Translations under genes and position numbers: made by a program
Shown: piece after piece, positions 32,373 through 40,314 of the stretch
How the letters are laid out: the number at the start of each line of letters is the position of its first letter
Numbering within the stretch: the stretch's first letter is position 1
Source of the DNA: Candidatus Dojkabacteria bacterium
GTDB taxonomy: Bacteria; Patescibacteriota; Dojkabacteria; J137
Assembly (NCBI GenBank): GCA_025993875.1
Contig: JAMQHH010000011.1
Location: forward strand, 1-40,380
Direction: 5' to 3'
Length of the DNA stretch: 40,380 nucleotides
Notes under the pieces: generated by a model
Seen by the model: the letters and a program-made list of their open reading frames with translations, nothing else
Told to the model about the DNA's origin: nothing
Databases searched by the model: none

Positions 32373-32446
32373 TGCCGGATCGTCTAATGGTAGGACAATG
32401 CCCTCTGGAGACATTTATCTAGGTTCGAATCCTAGTCCGGCAACCA
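32373..32446 (+). tRNA. tRNA-Gln (CUG anticodon), CCA encoded
   Basis: The 74-base gene folds as a cloverleaf. The acceptor TGCCGGA pairs with TCCGGCA. The D-arm is GTCT, AATGGTA, GGAC. The anticodon loop CTCTGGA gives CTG after the conserved U33. The T-arm is CTAGG, TTCGAAT, CCTAG, and ACCA is encoded. The U1-A72 pair and the D-arm are typical of tRNA-Gln. The anticodon stem (ATGCC with GACAT) has one C-A mismatch at position 30-40. It is the boundary between the chromosomal block and the metal-handling genes. Confidence 0.88.
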
Positions 32447-32502: not shown

Positions 32503-32596
32503 CAGCACTTTTTAATACACATATATAGTTCGAGCTGAATTATAATGATTAATTCAGGGTTTTTGACAATGTGCTTTGCTAAACTTTAGTTTTGTG

Positions 32597-32608
32597 CTAC
32601 ACTTGTAG
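32597..32608 (+). promoter_or_regulatory. cop-box operator overlapping the repressor promoter
   Basis: CTACACTTGTAG contains the core TACAnnTGTA (32598-32607) known as the binding site of CopY and similar to BlaI/MecI operators. It overlaps an extended -10 (TG at 32595-32596, TACACT at 32598-32603) with a TTGCTA-like -35 16 bases upstream. A TTGACA at 32563-32568 is an alternative -35. The start codon follows at 32636. It implies autoregulation of the repressor and the protease gene. Confidence 0.75.
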
Positions 32609-32635
32609 TAGTTATTTTATATTGATTAATAAAGT

Positions 32636-33001
32636 ATGAAATCTTTAGTACTTGGTGACCTCGAACAAGAAATATTGTCAATAATTTGGGCTTCAAAAGA
32701 ACCTATGAATGTTAGGTCTGTGCTCGAACAACTAAAAGAAAAGTCAGCATACACCACAGTAATGACTGTAATGACTAGAATGGAGAAGAAAGGTATTCTT
32801 AAACGAATTCCAGACGGTAATTCGTTTGTATATACATATACTGAGTGTAAGGAAGAATTTGCTGGTAAACATTTAGGTGGAATTTTCAACTCGTTAGTTG
32901 ATACCTATGGAGCATTAGCAATTTCGCAATTCATCGATTCAGTGAAAAGTGATGACAAAAACTCACAACTTCTCAAAGACTTTTTAAATAAAAATGAATA
33001 A
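32636..33001 (+). CDS. BlaI/MecI/CopY-family transcriptional repressor
   Basis: The 121-residue protein has the winged-helix domain of the BlaI/MecI/CopY family: LGDLEQEILSIIWASKEPMNV, then SAYTTVMTVMTRMEKKGILKR (residues about 38-57) and the wing DGNSFVYTYTECKEEF. It has a single Cys (C71). The CxCxxxxCxC metal site at the C-terminus of true CopY is absent. The gene is preceded by a cop-box, and two more copies lie ahead of downstream genes. Its stop overlaps the start of the M56 protease gene, the arrangement of blaI/blaR1 pairs. Loss of repression is therefore likely to need the protease. Confidence 0.92.
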   Translation: MKSLVLGDLEQEILSIIWASKEPMNVRSVLEQLKEKSAYTTVMTVMTRMEKKGILKRIPDGNSFVYTYTECKEEFAGKHLGGIFNSLVDTYGALAISQFIDSVKSDDKNSQLLKDFLNKNE

Positions 33002-33947
33002 AATCTACCTTACTCAAACAAATCGACTTTTTATAATTTACGTTATTTCTGGTTTTGCCTACACTACTCTATTAACTCTTCTCTCTGTACGAGTATTACC
33101 AGGTTTTTTTATGCAAACACTCTTTTTTATAGATGGAGTTATTAAAAATCGTACTGAAATTGCATCAATTACTTCAAGTGAAGCTTTTATTCAATCTATC
33201 ATCTTCGGGCTATTATCCCTAACTTTATTATTTATTGCATCGAGGGGAGTTATTATTTCAATCCAACAGTTATTTTTGTCCCAAAAGTTTTTGAACTCTT
33301 TAAAAAGTAAGTCTAATAAAACCATTATTACCGTAGAGTCAAATGAAACCTCTGTCTTTACGGCGGGATTTTTTACACCGAAAGTATATATTTCATCAAA
33401 ACTAAAGAGTTCGTTAACTTCTGAACAGTTAAAGGCGGTTTTGCATCATGAATTTTCGCATTGGAAAGATCATGATCCTTTGAGAGGATTTATTGTACAA
33501 CTCATCAATAATATACTTCCTCAGTTTCCTTTTAAGAACAAGCTGAAAGATATTTACTTCACATCTGTTGAACTAAAAAGTGATGAACACTCAGAAAACA
33601 TATTAGGAAAGAAAAGACCAATTATTGAAGCCTTATACTCGATTCTGAGTAATGACTTTTCCATGACCATGCAACCAAATTTAGCACATTTTAGTAATAT
33701 GCCCGAAAGAATACCTGTATTAGTTGGAGCAAAGAAATTTAACTTTAAACTAGTTACTACTTTATCATCATTCTTTTTGTTTGCCTTGGTTAGTTTACCT
33801 GTTTTTGTATATACAGTGAAATTCTATAATTGTGAACACATAGAAGATTGTATTCAAATATTTGTTAATAATTTGCAAAACAATTCTTCTGAAAACCTAT
33901 GCTCTATGCATTCGATGGATACTCCAACTTCCTGTACATCAAATTAA
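32994..33947 (+). CDS. BlaR1-like M56 membrane metalloprotease
   Basis: The 317-residue protein has two N-terminal membrane segments (about 13-33 and 65-82), then a cytoplasmic zinc protease domain with HEFSH at 152-156 and E193 as likely third ligand. A further membrane segment at about 254-274 leaves a C-terminal tail outside. BlaR1 and MecR1 carry a penicillin-binding sensor there. Here there is only a 43-residue tail containing C280, H282, C286, C303, M305, H306, M308 and C314, which looks like a thiol/thioether metal site. It overlaps the repressor gene by 8 bases, so it probably cleaves that repressor when metal is bound. Confidence 0.88.
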   Translation: MNKIYLTQTNRLFIIYVISGFAYTTLLTLLSVRVLPGFFMQTLFFIDGVIKNRTEIASITSSEAFIQSIIFGLLSLTLLFIASRGVIISIQQLFLSQKFLNSLKSKSNKTIITVESNETSVFTAGFFTPKVYISSKLKSSLTSEQLKAVLHHEFSHWKDHDPLRGFIVQLINNILPQFPFKNKLKDIYFTSVELKSDEHSENILGKKRPIIEALYSILSNDFSMTMQPNLAHFSNMPERIPVLVGAKKFNFKLVTTLSSFFLFALVSLPVFVYTVKFYNCEHIEDCIQIFVNNLQNNSSENLCSMHSMDTPTSCTSN

Positions 33948-33959
33948 TTCTAAAAGTTC

Positions 33960-34002
33960 TTGACAATTAATTATTAAGTTACTACACTTGTAGTAACTTA
34001 AT
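33960..34002 (+). promoter_or_regulatory. promoter with perfect cop-box palindrome
   Basis: TTGACA (33960-33965) and TACACT (33983-33988) are 17 bases apart, a near-consensus promoter. A perfect palindrome with 14-base arms and a CT centre spans 33973-34002. Its core TACACTTGTA (33983-33992) covers the -10. A repressor bound here would block polymerase directly. The start codon of the HMA-SafE fusion is at 34019, so the leader is short. Confidence 0.88.
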
Positions 34003-34018
34003 TTGTTATGAACTATGA

Positions 34019-35608
34019 ATGAAAAGTAAATCGAAAAAATCAGAGCCTCAATTAAAGGAATGCAGTTACTCAGTAAAGGGAATGCATTGTGCAAGTTGCG
34101 AGGTCCTCATTGAAAAGAAACTAATAAAACAAAATAATATTGAAGGAGTTGATGCTTCTACCTCAGACAACAGGGTAACGATAGAATATAAAGGAGAGAA
34201 GCCCACTTTAGAACAATTGAATAAATTGTTTAAAGCTGAAGGGTATAGTTTTGATGAAAGTGACAATAAGGATGCAGTTCAAGAGGATGTTGAAAAATTA
34301 TTTCAAGTCGAAAATGGTAAGTTAACTTTTAGCACACGCAAACTTAACTCAATCCTTTTTATTATAATTGGAGTTGCAGGTATTTTCTTAATCTATAAAC
34401 TATTTGAACGATTTGGTTTAGCTTCTGCTGTCTCTGTAAATGCAACATCTGCCTTGCCTGCATTTTTCTTTTTTGGCATTGTAGCAGGGTTTTCGAGTTG
34501 TGCGGCTCTTGTTGGTGGAATTGTATTATCCATGTCAAAGCAGTGGTATGAATTACATTCAACGAGTAATTCCTTTTCTGAGAAATTACAACCACATCTA
34601 TTGTTTAACATCGGAAGAATTATTTCATTTGCAATACTTGGAGGCGTTTTAGGTGCAATTGGAAGTATATTTACCATTTCCCCTTTATTTACGGCTCTTG
34701 TCGCAATTCTCGTTTCAATTATGATGGTGTTGTTAGGTTTACAAATGCTTGGTATTAAGACTTTTCAAAGATTTCAGTTTAGAATGCCAAAAGTATTTTC
34801 AAGGTACATCGCTGATGAATCCAATTTTGCGGGTAAATATATGCCTATGATTATGGGGGCACTTACATTCTTTCTTCCTTGTGGATTCACCATTACAGCT
34901 CAGGGTTTAGCTATGGTGTCAGGAGATCCTATTCGTGGAGCTTTAATAATGTCATTGTTTGCATTAGGAACTTCTCCAATGCTTTTGTTCATTGGTATGT
35001 CGAGTACAAAGATGTACGAAAAAGCTCATGTAGCTGAAAACTTCATGAAGTTAGTTGGCATTCTCGTCATACTCTTCGGACTTTCAACAGTTAACATGCA
35101 ATTAATTGCACTTGGACTTCCAAATTTAAATGACATTAGTTTCGGACAAAGCAGTATTACCCCAAATAATAACACAGAATCTTCAAATTCATCTCTTCCT
35201 GAAATAGTAAATGGGAAACAAGTAATAAAAATGGAAGCAAGTGCCTCAGGTTATACGCCTAATAATATTAAAGTGAGAGTAAATGTCCCTGTTCGATGGG
35301 AAATTAACGACACTGGAACTTCAGGCTGTACAAATGTCATTATCTCAAAAGGCCTTTTTGATGGTCAGATAGAGCTTGAAACAGGAAAAGTTGCGGTTAA
35401 AGAGTTTACACCTACAAAGGTAGGAAATTATAGATTTAGCTGTTGGATGGGAATGGTAACTGGTGTGATCGATGTTGTGGATGATACTGGTAAAACAGGA
35501 AGTGATTCGGGAACAACTAAGGAACAAGTTGTTGTTGAGTCTGGTGCAAAAGGTTGTGGCTGTGGCGGAGGTGGTGGAAACTCATGTGGAGGTTCAAAAA
35601 ATAACTAA
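34019..35608 (+). CDS. HMA-SafE-cupredoxin fusion membrane protein
   Basis: The 529-residue protein has four parts. An N-terminal HMA domain (about 14-80) has the metal motif GMHCASC at 21-27. A SafE/DsbD-like membrane domain (about 108-365) has about seven helices, with a Cys in SSCAALVGG (C161) and another in FLPCGFT (C288). A cupredoxin-like domain (about 400-490) has C437, C475, M477 and M479 as candidate ligands. The tail is Gly/Cys-rich (KGCGCGGGGG and NSCGG, 511-525). The family is usually linked to heavy-metal handling. The cop-box promoter and neighbours point to copper. Confidence 0.87.
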   Translation: MKSKSKKSEPQLKECSYSVKGMHCASCEVLIEKKLIKQNNIEGVDASTSDNRVTIEYKGEKPTLEQLNKLFKAEGYSFDESDNKDAVQEDVEKLFQVENGKLTFSTRKLNSILFIIIGVAGIFLIYKLFERFGLASAVSVNATSALPAFFFFGIVAGFSSCAALVGGIVLSMSKQWYELHSTSNSFSEKLQPHLLFNIGRIISFAILGGVLGAIGSIFTISPLFTALVAILVSIMMVLLGLQMLGIKTFQRFQFRMPKVFSRYIADESNFAGKYMPMIMGALTFFLPCGFTITAQGLAMVSGDPIRGALIMSLFALGTSPMLLFIGMSSTKMYEKAHVAENFMKLVGILVILFGLSTVNMQLIALGLPNLNDISFGQSSITPNNNTESSNSSLPEIVNGKQVIKMEASASGYTPNNIKVRVNVPVRWEINDTGTSGCTNVIISKGLFDGQIELETGKVAVKEFTPTKVGNYRFSCWMGMVTGVIDVVDDTGKTGSDSGTTKEQVVVESGAKGCGCGGGGGNSCGGSKNN

Positions 35609-35629
35609 AACTGATCAAAATATCATTTT

Positions 35630-36400
35630 ATGAAAAAAATATTAAAAAGTTTACCGTTAATAATTTCACTTGTATTTATACTTGCCCCTGTATTTGCATA
35701 CTTAAAGCTAAGTTTCTTATCTGACCCAATTTATTGGTTTTATCAGTGGTTTTGCCATCAAAGACCGTGGCGTTCATATCACATGTTTGATTATCAGTAC
35801 GCACTAGATGCAAGAATGGTTACACTGTTTTTAGGTTTGGGGATAGGTGGATTATTAACATCTGTAAAAAAGATGAAACCATTAAAATGGAAACAAGCAA
35901 TGATTTTTATCATTATAATGCTTATTCCTATGGCAATTGATGGAATAACCCAATTGGTTGCTGAATTGAGTGTTATCAACAAGGTAATGCAATTACCATT
36001 CTATGAAAGTACAAATTTCATTAGAAGTATTACAGGTATTTTTGCAGGTGTAGGAATTTCAGTTGCCTTATTCCCATATATTAATAGTGGCGAATCTGTT
36101 GGTTTTAATAAAGAGTATGTTAAAACAATACTTTTTGGCATGTTTATAACGTTTTTATCAATCCCTCTTTTTGTGTATCTATGGTTTTTATCTTCTACTA
36201 AATACGTTCCATCATCAATGTTTATTGATTCATTGCAGAGATTTCCTGGATACAACTATGAAGTAACCACTGGTGGTGGTCATTCGACTATTAATAGAAT
36301 CTTTAAAGAACCTACAGATCCATATAAACAAAGAGAAAAGTATTATCAGAATGAGGCTAATGGAAAATGTAATGTAACTACAAAAGAAAATTGCGATTAA
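35630..36400 (+). CDS. DUF2085-family membrane protein
   Basis: The 256-residue protein has about five membrane segments and the DUF2085 signature: YQWFCHQRPWRSYHMF (about 39-54) followed by DARMVTLFLGLGIGG. The C-terminal 60 residues are hydrophilic, with a GGGHS segment and C249/C255. Its biochemical function is unknown. It follows the fusion gene by 21 bases and shares its cop-box promoter, which is the best clue to a metal-related role. Confidence 0.83.
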   Translation: MKKILKSLPLIISLVFILAPVFAYLKLSFLSDPIYWFYQWFCHQRPWRSYHMFDYQYALDARMVTLFLGLGIGGLLTSVKKMKPLKWKQAMIFIIIMLIPMAIDGITQLVAELSVINKVMQLPFYESTNFIRSITGIFAGVGISVALFPYINSGESVGFNKEYVKTILFGMFITFLSIPLFVYLWFLSSTKYVPSSMFIDSLQRFPGYNYEVTTGGGHSTINRIFKEPTDPYKQREKYYQNEANGKCNVTTKENCD

Positions 36401-36403
36401 CAA

Positions 36404-36432
36404 TTGACAGGCTACTACAAGTGTAGTAACAT
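36404..36432 (+). promoter_or_regulatory. promoter with third cop-box
   Basis: TTGACA (36404-36409) and TAACAT (36427-36432) are 17 bases apart. The palindrome TACTACAAGTGTAGTA at 36413-36428, with core TACAAGTGTA, fills the spacer. This site would control the second long unit, from the anchored cupredoxin through the ATPase to the small protein at 40078, all on the plus strand with gaps under 30 bases. Confidence 0.85.
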
Positions 36433-36471: not shown

Positions 36472-36909
36472 ATGTCTAAAAAGAATAAAAATATGCAAGA
36501 AACTACCACAATTAATGGGACAGGAATATCGATTGGGATTGCAGTAATTGTGGTAATTGGGTTTGTCTTCCTCATAGGCTCTGGAAATAATAATTCTGCT
36601 GATGTAAAAGGTGCAAGTTCAAATGTCGTCAGCACTTCAGGAGATAAACAAATTATTGAAGTGACAGTTACTGGTGGCTATTCACCTCGTACAATTAACG
36701 CCAAAGCAGGTGTTCCAACAATTATTCGTATGAAATCAGATGGTGCGTATGGTTGTGAAAGAGCTTTTAGAATACCAAGTTTAGGAATTTCAAAGACATT
36801 ACCCGCAAGTGGTAATACTGATATTGAAATTACTTCTCAGAACGCAGGTACCAGCTTAAGAGGTTCTTGTAGTATGGGAATGTATAGTTTTGTAATTAAT
36901 TTTAATTAA
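36472..36909 (+). CDS. membrane-anchored cupredoxin-like protein
   Basis: The 145-residue protein has one N-terminal membrane anchor (about 19-37) and then a cupredoxin-like domain. Motifs are GGYSPRTINAKAGVPT (about 68-83), YGCERAFRIPSLGI (C95) and RGSCSMGMYSF (C133, M135, M137). These form a likely thiol/thioether copper site at the outer face. It is the first gene after the third cop-box and precedes the HMA protein by 8 bases. Confidence 0.85.
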   Translation: MSKKNKNMQETTTINGTGISIGIAVIVVIGFVFLIGSGNNNSADVKGASSNVVSTSGDKQIIEVTVTGGYSPRTINAKAGVPTIIRMKSDGAYGCERAFRIPSLGISKTLPASGNTDIEITSQNAGTSLRGSCSMGMYSFVINFN

Positions 36910-36917
36910 TATTTAAT

Positions 36918-37142
36918 ATGAAATACCAAATAGATATTTCAGGAATGCACTGTTCGGGATGCAAAAACTTAATAACTATGTCATTAGAAGATATTGGGTT
37001 AGAAGAAGTTGTTGTTGATTCTGAAAAGAATGTTGCTATTTTTGTGACTTCTAAAAATACTGAGGAAGTCGAAAAAGATCTTCAAGAAGTATTTAAAGAT
37101 TTAATAGACTATAAATATTCTAATCTTGATATTATTGCTTAA
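36918..37142 (+). CDS. CopZ-like HMA metallochaperone
   Basis: The 74-residue protein is a single HMA domain with the metal loop GMHCSGC at 9-15 (C12, C15). The rest shows the beta-alpha-beta pattern (LITMSLEDIGLEEVVVDSEKNVAIF). Such proteins hand copper to P1B ATPases or to repressors. It lies between the cupredoxin and DUF305 genes, upstream of the ATPase. Confidence 0.87.
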   Translation: MKYQIDISGMHCSGCKNLITMSLEDIGLEEVVVDSEKNVAIFVTSKNTEEVEKDLQEVFKDLIDYKYSNLDIIA

Positions 37143-37160: not shown

Positions 37161-37721
37161 ATGTCAAAATATATAACAATTTCACTCGTCATTATTTTCT
37201 TTGTACTTGGAACTGGTCTCGGCTATGTTGTATCACCACAGTACTCAATGAATCAATATGAAAGCAAACAAATGGTGGATTTAGGTAAAGCAGATAAATA
37301 TGTTGATTTACGATATATAAATGCAATGATTGCACATCATAAAGGTGCAATGAAACTAGCAGAACAGGTTAAAAATGAATCCCAAAGACAAGATATTAAA
37401 GATCTTGCAAATATGATCTTAACAGATGAACCAAAAGCAATTGCTGAATTATATCAATGGAAGAAGGATTGGTATAACGATACAACAGAAGTCGCTTCAA
37501 TGGATGTTCCTAATTTAGGTACATATGATGAAAAGTTGGATTGGAGATTTTTAAATGCTCTTATTACTCATCACGAATCAGGAATTGAAATGACTATGGA
37601 GATTCAAAAAAAATCAACAAGAAATGAAATCTTGAACAATGCAAACGCAGTCGAAGACTTCTTACACAAAGGTAAGATCAAATTAAGTCAAATGAGAACT
37701 GATTGGTACGAAGTCAAATAA
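37161..37721 (+). CDS. anchored DUF305 protein, two His-His repeats
   Basis: The 186-residue protein has an N-terminal membrane anchor or signal (about 5-22) and two DUF305 repeats: MIAHHKGAMKLAEQV at 57-71 and LITHHESGIEMTMEI at 135-149. The domain is a helical, ferritin-like bundle often found in metal-resistance loci. Met and His spacing suggests copper binding at the outer face. It lies 18 bases after the CopZ-like gene. Confidence 0.87.
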   Translation: MSKYITISLVIIFFVLGTGLGYVVSPQYSMNQYESKQMVDLGKADKYVDLRYINAMIAHHKGAMKLAEQVKNESQRQDIKDLANMILTDEPKAIAELYQWKKDWYNDTTEVASMDVPNLGTYDEKLDWRFLNALITHHESGIEMTMEIQKKSTRNEILNNANAVEDFLHKGKIKLSQMRTDWYEVK

Positions 37722-37745: not shown

Positions 37746-40058
37746 ATGGAAAAAATAACAATACCTATTAAGGGAATGCACTGTGCAAGTTGTGCATTAA
37801 CCATTGAGAAAGCAATTTCCAAAGTAAATGGAGTTGACTCAATTAAAGTGAATTATGGCACAGAGAAAGCTACTATTGAGTTTGATAAAACTGCAACATC
37901 AATAGACCAAATGAGCGAAAGAATAAAACCATTTGGCTATGAATTGCAAAATGAAGTTGCAATGCCAATGAGTCATGGAAATATGTCAGCAAATGAACAT
38001 GCAGAACACTTAGGACTTGATAAAAGCAAGCAAGAAAAACTTAAGGAGTTGGATAAACAAAAATCTGAAGTTGAATTTGTCCTCCCGATTGCATTGATGA
38101 TCTTTGTATTAATGATGTGGGAAATTAGTGCAAAATCATTCCCAAATGTCGTTCCAGCATTCTTTCTCCCAATGCAACTGTACTCTACAATGATGATGAT
38201 TATTTCTTCTGTAGTTCTGTTTTGGATTGGACAACCTTTTTTAAATGGCATAGTAAACTTTATCCAATATAAAGTCGCCAATATGGATACTTTAATTGGT
38301 ATTGGCACGTTAACGGCATATCTCTATAGTTCTTTTGTTGTTTTATTCCCAAATATCGCACATTCAGCAGGGCTTCCAGAGACAAATTACTTTGATGTTG
38401 CGATCGTGGTTATTGGATTTATTGTCTTCGGTAAATATTTAGAAGCACGATCTAAGCTTAAAACAGGGGAAGCAATTGAAAAGCTGATGAATCTACAAGC
38501 TAAAACTGCGTTAGTTGAAAGAAATGGTGAAGAAATTGAAATAGCAATTGATATGGTGCAACTTGATGATGTCGTCATTGTTAAACCAGGAGGCAAAATC
38601 CCTGTAGATGGCGTTATTATCGAAGGTAAATCTTCAATTGATGAATCAATGGTAACTGGTGAGCCAATTCCAGTTGATAAAACAGTTGAAGACAAAGTTA
38701 TTGGAGGAACAATAAATAAGCAAGGTACATTCAAGTTTAAAGCTACGAAAGTTGGTTCAGATACTCTTTTAGCAAGCATTATTAAAATGGTTGAAGAAGC
38801 ACAAGGTTCTCGAGCACCTATCCAAAAATTAGCAGATCAGATCTCAGGAGTATTTGTGCCTGTAGTACTCATAATAGCTGTTTTGACCTTAATAGTATGG
38901 TTGGCAGTTGGAAGTCAATTTATGCCATTTAACGAAGCTCTAACCTATGGATTACTTTGCTTTGTTGGAATTTTAGTAATTGCATGTCCATGTGCTTTAG
39001 GTCTTGCTACTCCAACCGCAATTATTGTTGGTGTTGGTAAAGGTGCTCAAAACGGTATTCTCATTAAAAATGCTGAGAGTTTAGAAAAATTGCACAAGGT
39101 AAATACTATCGTTGTTGATAAAACAGGAACGATTACTAAGGGTAAGCCTGAAGTTACAGATATCCTTCCTTCATATGCAAATGAGTCTATTGATGGAGTT
39201 GAAATACTAAAATTAATCGCTTCTTTAGAAAAGAACTCGGAGCATCCATTAGCTGAAGCAATCAAAGAAAAGGCGAAATCTATGGATGTACAACTTACAA
39301 AAGTTGATGATTTCGAGATCATTGAAGGTAAAGGATTGAAAGGTACTATTGATGGCAAGATGTACTTTGCAGGAAACCTGAAACTTATGGATGATTTAAA
39401 GCTTGATTACGATAAGGATTTAATTGATAAATTGTCGAAACAAGGTAAGTCACCAGTACTTTTTACTGATGATAAAAAGGTGTTAGCAACAATTGCAATT
39501 TCCGACACTATTAAAGAATCAAGCGCAGATGCAGTTGCAAGATTACATAAGCTTGGTGTTAAAGTCGTAATGCTTACAGGTGATAATCGAAATACGGCTA
39601 AATACATAGCAGATTTGGTTGGAATTGATAAAGTCTTTGCAGAAGTATTGCCAAGTGAGAAAGCAGACAAGGTTCGTGAACTACAAGCAGAAGGTTTAGT
39701 TGTCGCTATGGCAGGAGACGGCGTAAATGATGCGCCTGCACTTGCTCAATCTGACGTAGGAATTGCGATGGGAACAGGTACTGATGTTGCAATTGAATCC
39801 GCAGATATAACATTACTTGCAGGAGATATTTCAAAGATTCCACAAGCTATCAAGTTGTCAAAGAAAACAATGGCTACGATTAAACAAAATCTCTTTTGGG
39901 CATTTATCTACAATGTTGTTGGTATTCCGTTAGCGGCTGGATTACTCTTTCCAATTTGGGGAATTCTATTAAATCCAGTATTTGCAGGTTTAGCAATGGC
40001 ATTTAGTAGTGTTTCAGTTGTTACAAATTCACTGAGACTGAAGTTTGTAAAGATTTAA
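37746..40058 (+). CDS. copA: copper-exporting P1B-type ATPase CopA
   Basis: The 770-residue pump has one N-terminal HMA domain with GMHCASC at 10-16. A short Met/His-rich linker (about 72-88) and eight expected membrane helices follow. Core motifs are TGEP at 304-307, the CPC site at 414-416 ([12 protein letters not shown]), DKTGT at 458-462, the HP motif in [16 protein letters not shown] and GDGVNDAPA. The last helices carry YNVVGIP and MAFSSVSVV, typical of Cu(I) exporters rather than zinc or cadmium pumps. It ends 19 bases before the small gene at 40078. Confidence 0.96.
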
Positions 40059-40077: not shown

Positions 40078-40314
40078 ATGAAAAAAGAAGTTTTAGGAGG
40101 TTTGATCATTGTAGCAATTGTTGTTGGAGGTTTAGTTTTCTATTCATTTAATAATAAACCAAAGTCCGATACTTTAACTACTCAAGTTCAGCCAACATCA
40201 AATACAACGCTAACAAGTACGTTAGAAGAAACTGAAGCGTATGTATTTACAGAAAATAAGGGTGAAACACTTCAAGTAGTTAATGAAGATGTTCCATTAA
40301 TTCAATCGCATTAA
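40078..40314 (+). CDS. small membrane-anchored protein, unknown
   Basis: The 78-residue protein has an N-terminal hydrophobic anchor (residues 6-23: LGGLIIVAIVVGGLVFYS) and a Thr/Ser/Glu-rich tail outside. It has no Cys and no recognisable motif. It follows copA by 19 bases and is probably the last gene of the copper unit within the window. It could be the N-terminal part of a longer ancestral protein, but no frame continues it. The 66 bases to the window end show only a weak stem at 40357-40374. Confidence 0.5.
   Translation: MKKEVLGGLIIVAIVVGGLVFYSFNNKPKSDTLTTQVQPTSNTTLTSTLEETEAYVFTENKGETLQVVNEDVPLIQSH

Follow-up and report, generated by a model that had tools for sequence, protein, structure and literature searches.

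A cluster of copper-handling genes that opens with a BlaI-type repressor and a BlaR1-like membrane protease raises the question of which genes this pair controls and to which signal it answers. The window analysed here is the whole of one contig (C6; 40,380 bases) of a 930-kb genome that is 96% complete and derives from a tiny, probably host-dependent bacterium.

Organization of the copper cluster

All genes of the cluster lie on the forward strand. The first unit encodes a BlaI/MecI-type winged-helix repressor of 121 aa (32636-33001; PF03965, E=2e-22) and an M56 (BlaR1-like) membrane metalloprotease of 317 aa (32994-33947; PF05569, E=1.1e-5), the start of the protease gene (32994) overlapping the end of blaI (33001). 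The second unit consists of a 529-aa protein in which Pfam recognizes an HMA domain, a SafE/DsbD_2 membrane domain and a cupredoxin domain, with a Gly/Cys-rich C-terminus (34019-35608), and a DUF2085 membrane protein of 256 aa (35630-36400; PF09858, E=4e-19); the initial annotation had recognized this unit as an HMA-SafE fusion with DUF2085 and had overlooked the C-terminal cupredoxin domain. The third unit comprises a membrane-anchored cupredoxin of 145 aa (36472-36909; PF13473, E=2.3e-9), an HMA metallochaperone-like protein of 74 aa (36918-37142; PF00403, E=2.6e-7), a DUF305/CopM-like protein of 186 aa (37161-37721; PF03713, E=4.1e-19; E=5e-12 against the CopM domain model, under its cut-off), a CopA-type P1B copper ATPase of 770 aa (37746-40058; TIGR01511, 608 bits against a cut-off of 397) and an ORF of 78 aa that has a membrane anchor at its N-terminus and no family assignment (40078-40314). 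Because the window is the entire contig, this last unit reaches the contig end at 40380, and since that end follows shortly after it, the unit may extend further. Only one PF03965 gene is present in the genome, with one M56 gene adjoining it; a second, weaker match to the M56 profile, below the cut-off, lies elsewhere.

Directly 5' of the cluster is a tRNA-Gln (CTG) gene (32373-32446), a possible insertion point for the cluster. GC content and composition, checked for signs of a foreign origin, revealed no shift.

The same genome also holds a complete-looking type V-A CRISPR system (G000:C16:12191-18116, L193:2192-8117; and G000:C18:17917-18877, L192:7417 on), in which a 1199-aa protein, Cas12a-like by its N-terminus, is followed by Cas4-, Cas1- and Cas2-like genes (named by eye). 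Its repeats contain TTTCTACTTTTGTAGAT at a spacing of 62-64 bp, with 15 copies on C18 and 2 at the end of C16.

One operator type at three unit heads

The core TACAnnTGTA occurs at 32598, 33983 and 36416, and the three sites, as first annotated, stand at the heads of the BlaI-M56, HMA-SafE/DUF2085 and cupredoxin-HMA-DUF305-CopA units. They share a longer dyad, TACTACA-NN-TGTAGTA (16-mer TACTACAnnTGTAGTA), to which operator 1 (TGCTACACTTGTAGTA; 32595-32610), centred about 33 bp 5' of blaI, has one mismatch, while operator 2 (TACTACACTTGTAGTA; 33980-33995) and operator 3 (TACTACAAGTGTAGTA; 36413-36428) are exact. Operator 2 lies inside a perfect palindrome with 14-base arms (33973-34002) that spans a -10-like TACACT, as had also been noticed. 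The claim that each site sits within a promoter fits two of the three: a TTGACA lies 5' of every site (32563-32568, 33960 and 36404), operator 2 falls on the -10 (TACACT, 33983-33988, 17 nt after TTGACA) and operator 3 in the spacer before TAACAT (36427), but operator 1 is downstream of a poor -10. A consensus scan returned no more promoter-like matches in the region than expected by chance, so the promoter claims rest on the common arrangement rather than on the scan.

The 10-mer core occurs three times in the window against 0.65 expected (at least three in 4 of 100 shuffles), and its 31 copies genome-wide, mostly within genes, are near the chance number. The genome scan proposed in the initial annotation thus recovers the three unit-head sites, but 11 of the 12 sites examined outside the window are within ORFs, as are all remaining exact CTACAnnTGTAG sites of the genome. 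On its own the core is weak evidence, and the true motif is the 16-mer: with up to two mismatches it occurs three times in the window against 0.18 expected (no shuffle of 100 reached three), and the only sites with at most one mismatch in the entire 930 kb are these three. When a 3-base spacer is allowed, the best sites genome-wide are two with two mismatches each.

The repressor belongs to the BlaI/MecI family

The repressor scores 80.1 bits against Penicillinase_R (PF03965; curated cut-off 22.6) and 41.6 bits against the CopY_TcrY equivalog (TIGR02698; E=1e-10), far under the cut-off of 121.95. The absence of the CopY cysteine cluster, remarked on earlier, is borne out: the single cysteine, C71, lies outside the C-terminal 50 residues, and a C-terminal CxC is missing. 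For CopY, TACANNTGTA has been found necessary but not sufficient, and the refined consensus is RNYKACANNTGTMRNY (O'Brien et al. 2020, PMC7253601). All three operators begin with T (position 1) and end with A (position 16), which breaks this consensus, and the 'cop-box' label has to be given up for these extended sites, which are of the BlaI/MecI type. We therefore rejected a CopY identity for the repressor on profile score, lack of a C-terminal CxC and operator sequence together. The outer operator bases presumably resemble those of the MecI and Mycobacterium tuberculosis BlaI operators.

In alignments with PDB chains, F99 of the repressor matches F102 of Staphylococcus aureus BlaI and MecI, so that Q98-F99 corresponds to N101-F102, which we take to be the known cut site of those proteins; the Phe is nearly invariant in 21 relatives and the Asn is not conserved. 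A TACA/TGTA dyad, the predicted operator, is present and conserved at the repressor's own promoter.

A BlaR1-like protease with a short cysteine-bearing tail

The protease scores 25.2 bits against Pfam M56 (PF05569), below the cut-off of 31, and passes the cut-off of M48 (PF01435). Its HEFSH motif (152-156) and third zinc ligand E193 are invariant across the family alignment (A1, A3). The family profile finds BlaR1 in the PDB (8exp; E=2.3e-10, residues 106-335 of a 602-residue chain), and BlaR1 is also the top fold match of an AlphaFold (AF2) model with a pLDDT of 83 (Foldseek E 0.0026, probability 1.00), though the low TM-score of ~0.4 makes this a match of domain type and not of close arrangement. 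Among full-length membrane matches BlaR1 ranks first both by profile and by fold.

The penicillin-binding sensor domain is absent from the M56 protein, whose chain stops 45 residues past the last membrane helix. These 45 residues (YTVKFYNCEHIEDCIQIFVNNLQNNSSENLCSMHSMDTPTSCTSN), which by homology with BlaR1 would be extracytoplasmic, carry C280, a CX5C and CSMHSMDTPTSC, in the pattern CX5C...CSMHSM...C, and their end (297-317) is unstructured in the AF2 model. C280 is invariant within a nine-member clade, and the CX5C is common to several members (NCEHIEDC in the window; SCPHLTLC, VCNNIEEC, RCHEFYTC and ACSNHDTC). At least one tail cysteine occurs in 19 of 19 homologues, in which Cys makes up 6.4% of tail residues against 1.0% elsewhere (odds ratio 6.6; Fisher p 9e-20, an optimistic value because the sequences are related). 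Copper-linked and Dsb-linked members have similar tail cysteine contents and do not separate by them.

Some actinomycete M56 proteins encoded beside BlaI (L099, L112, L130, L134, L148) end in a His/Cys cluster, AHHCH, and several of their genes lie near CopA or DUF305 genes; these tails are possibly copper sensors of another make.

The same module in relatives

Homologues of the protease were sought within the phylum Patescibacteria, Collierbacteria and WWE3 genomes among them, and were found in 4 of 9 genomes of the family, 9 of 86 of the class and 14 of 380 of the phylum. Two of the 14 (G157 and G405; L070, L071) look HtpX-like and lack a neighbouring BlaI gene, and they were set aside; in all loci that remain a BlaI gene adjoins the protease gene. 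A single M56 query gave no matches among genome and viral contigs, and a plasmid search gave only distant M56 matches, in Bacilli and Glaciecola.

The dyad, with up to two mismatches, lies near the start codon of 14 of 22 BlaI genes, the window's included (for each, none of 100 shuffles was as good). The window and 20 relative loci, 318 kb in all, contain 14 exact dyads whose spacer measures 2 or 3 bases; all of them are intergenic and 13 lie no more than 80 bp upstream of an ORF, and 60 permuted half-sites or motifs gave no exact match in the same 318 kb. A second operator is often found 5' of the gene after the protease, which in most loci encodes a DsbA/Thioredoxin_4 protein. Thioredoxin, GILT-like, CsoR and thioredoxin-reductase-like genes also lie behind such operators, as does, in Collierbacteria, an HMA-SafE-cupredoxin fusion. 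DsbB-like and DsbA-like neighbours are present within the window's own family.

Copper genes are linked to BlaI-M56 in the window, in Collierbacteria system A and in G218, G351 and G046. The Collierbacteria relative, in which the orthologue of the HMA-SafE-cupredoxin fusion adjoins BlaI-M56, has the same order as the window (BlaI-M56-operator-HMA/SafE/cupredoxin-HMA-CopA), and the two pair in the M56 tree (support 89/86), apart from G218 and G351. The copper wiring would therefore have arisen at least twice, a conclusion for which the tree provides moderate support.

In that Collierbacteria genome (G186, RIFOXYD2_FULL_45_13; L059:6269-16922) a pair of paralogous BlaI-M56 switches is separated by 8 kb. 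The operators of the copper-linked switch have a 3-base spacer and those of the DsbA-linked switch a 2-base spacer, a difference in length that may keep the two insulated from each other. Two other loci (L060:3449-11875 and L065:2053-13476), from genomes of different families, are near-alike BlaI-M56-CsoR-HMA/SafE copper loci with BlaI-M56 and CsoR side by side. Their likeness (M56 branch lengths 0.057 and 0.11) suggests recent horizontal transfer.

Outside the phylum, an FtrD-like (DUF2318) gene follows BlaI-M56 in Bacillota, Aquicultor and Thermoleophilia (L081, L084, L085, L094, L106, L127; assigned by Pfam in four of the six loci and by resemblance in the others), with operators like TACTACA-N3-TGTAGTA, and a MacB/FtsX permease gene lies behind BlaI-M56 and an operator in L080 and L123. 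The module is thus broad.

BlaI-M56 in the place of CsoR

HMA-SafE homologues occur in 177 of the 380 phylum genomes. A CsoR-like gene is found in the 1.5-kb flanks of 24 of the 30 best HMA-SafE loci, and BlaI in only two, those of the window and Collierbacteria, both of which lack CsoR there. BlaI-M56 occupies CsoR's place in the window's copper locus. The one CsoR-family gene of the window's genome is on another contig (G000:C31:2131-2355; L186), directly 5' of the thioredoxin and thioredoxin reductase genes trxA and trxB and not of copper genes; with a CsoR-family protein elsewhere in the genome, copper could be sensed differently.

Proposed mechanism and alternative explanations

We consider it likely, if by no means settled, that the window holds a three-operator copper regulon under a two-gene BlaI-M56 switch, in which the protease tail meets copper and M56 cuts BlaI. 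A BlaI dimer bound to TACTACA-NN-TGTAGTA at the three promoters would hold low the repressor-protease pair, the HMA-SafE-cupredoxin/DUF2085 unit and the cupredoxin-HMA-DUF305-CopA unit. As copper rises outside the membrane, the short Cys/Met/His tail of M56, which takes the position of the penicillin sensor in BlaR1, would bind Cu(I) or be oxidized because of copper; the altered tail would turn on the cytoplasmic zinc site, and BlaI would be cut at Q98-F99. Expression of all three units would follow, and because more repressor and protease would be made on derepression, the switch would reset. What the sequence shows directly is the operators, the domains with their catalytic residues, the tail and a module conserved across the phylum; from these we infer repression, cleavage of BlaI, copper as the probable signal and the tail as its sensor. 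The suggestion that regulation runs through the adjacent protease has held up: with one BlaI-family repressor, an active-looking M56 neighbour, one operator type and three copper-related units, proteolytic derepression is the most economical reading. Against copper counts the finding that, among the relatives nearest by family, the module mostly stands before DsbA/thioredoxin genes and not before copper genes.

This last point makes thiol redox a serious rival input. The M56 tail might respond not to copper as such but to the extracytoplasmic thiol-disulfide state, by losing or forming a disulfide; the copper genes would then be one output, as copper damages thiols, and SafE/DsbD-like proteins would belong to the same redox network. 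We regard this as unlikely, though well ahead of the other alternatives. It agrees with the DsbA/Thioredoxin_4, thioredoxin, GILT-like or thioredoxin-reductase-like gene behind the second operator of most relatives, with the DsbB- and DsbA-like neighbours in the window's family, and with cysteine-bearing tails in all members whatever their targets; it is kept alive by the failure of the tail cysteines to tell copper-linked from Dsb-linked members. In the window, however, no Dsb or thioredoxin gene stands under an operator, both target units are copper-typed, Met and His are present in the tail as well (CSMHSM), and trxA and trxB lie elsewhere in the genome, next to the CsoR-like gene.

It is improbable that BlaI itself senses copper or redox, as CopY does, with M56 serving constitutive repressor turnover or another purpose. 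The CopY_TcrY model does match, at a score far under its cut-off, and TACAnnTGTA is the classical cop box (PMC7253601), but a repressor with C71 as its one cysteine and no C-terminal CxC, operators that violate RNYKACANNTGTMRNY at both outer positions and a BlaI-M56 pairing that is near universal among relatives all argue against it. A response to cell-wall or beta-lactam stress in the manner of BlaR1/MecR1, with the copper genes as passengers, is suggested by membership of the BlaI/BlaR1 family and is very improbable for an M56 protein without a penicillin-binding sensor domain and for operators that precede neither a beta-lactamase nor a PBP gene but, the repressor-protease pair aside, only metal genes. 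A last alternative, in which the sites would be terminators or palindromes arisen by chance, as the near-chance frequency of the 10-mer and the terminator-like stem score of site 2 might imply, is largely refuted by the 16-mer statistics and by a position upstream of like genes conserved across the phylum; recurrence of the site 2 dyad at other promoters led us to discard a terminator there.

Around the preferred copper regulon a wider reading can be drawn, which we hold tentatively and at somewhat less than even chances: a Patescibacteria family of envelope switches built on BlaI-M56, in whose proteases a short cysteine-bearing tail replaces the BlaR1 sensor domain and acts as a direct Cu(I) or thiol sensor, wired to copper export at least twice and mostly to Dsb/thioredoxin genes. 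The family would stand in for CsoR in the window and the Collierbacteria relative, and the operators of the two G186 paralogous switches would be told apart by their spacer of 2 or 3 bases.

Relation to known systems and significance

The initial annotation considered a copper-responsive proteolytic circuit of this kind undescribed. This does not stand, as copper triggers protease-mediated loss of a BlaI-type regulator in the PetR/PetP system of Synechocystis sp. PCC 6803 (PMC7896320, PMC13421787, PMC10141476), and the mechanism class is therefore not new. There too a BlaI-family regulator adjoins a BlaR1-like membrane protease, and PetP removes PetR when copper is present. PetR/PetP differs in swapping photosynthetic electron carriers (plastocyanin/cytochrome c6), with PetR also activating petJ, whereas the targets inferred for the window are a copper exporter, HMA/SafE, cupredoxin and DUF305 proteins; a Pfam scan found no plastocyanin or cytochrome c6 genes under the window's operators. 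For PetP, the copper-regulated activity was left to future work (commentary, PMC7896320) and membrane localization has been called unresolved (2026 review, PMC13421787), and BlaR homologues in other phyla are described as having a role not yet known (review, PMC10141476).

With BlaI/BlaR1 and MecI/MecR1 of S. aureus, the window shares the repressor family, the membrane zinc-protease core, a Phe at the cut position and the TACA/TGTA dyad, but the tail of its protease has 45 residues instead of ~260 and the targets are copper genes. The cop operons of Lactobacillales under CopY/CopR have in common with it the repressor fold, the TACAnnTGTA core and copper-export targets, but the window's repressor is without the CxC metal site, the outer operator bases differ and a protease is present. 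The CsoR-linked HMA-SafE loci of Patescibacteria have the same kind of targets (HMA-SafE, HMA, CopA), and it is the regulator that differs, the window and Collierbacteria having BlaI-M56 where CsoR stands in 24 of the 30 closest loci. What is new here are the copper-efflux/HMA-SafE targets, the minimal cysteine tail, the Patescibacteria setting and a module held in common with Dsb genes.

The way in which M56 proteases lacking a penicillin-binding domain, PetP included, perceive their signal becomes directly approachable by mutation here, as the candidate sensor is cut down to ~45 residues with an invariant Cys. Across the phylum, one operator-protease module has been put to use for copper genes and for disulfide genes alike, which suggests a general response to thiol/metal stress at the envelope of bacteria whose very small genomes retain few regulators.
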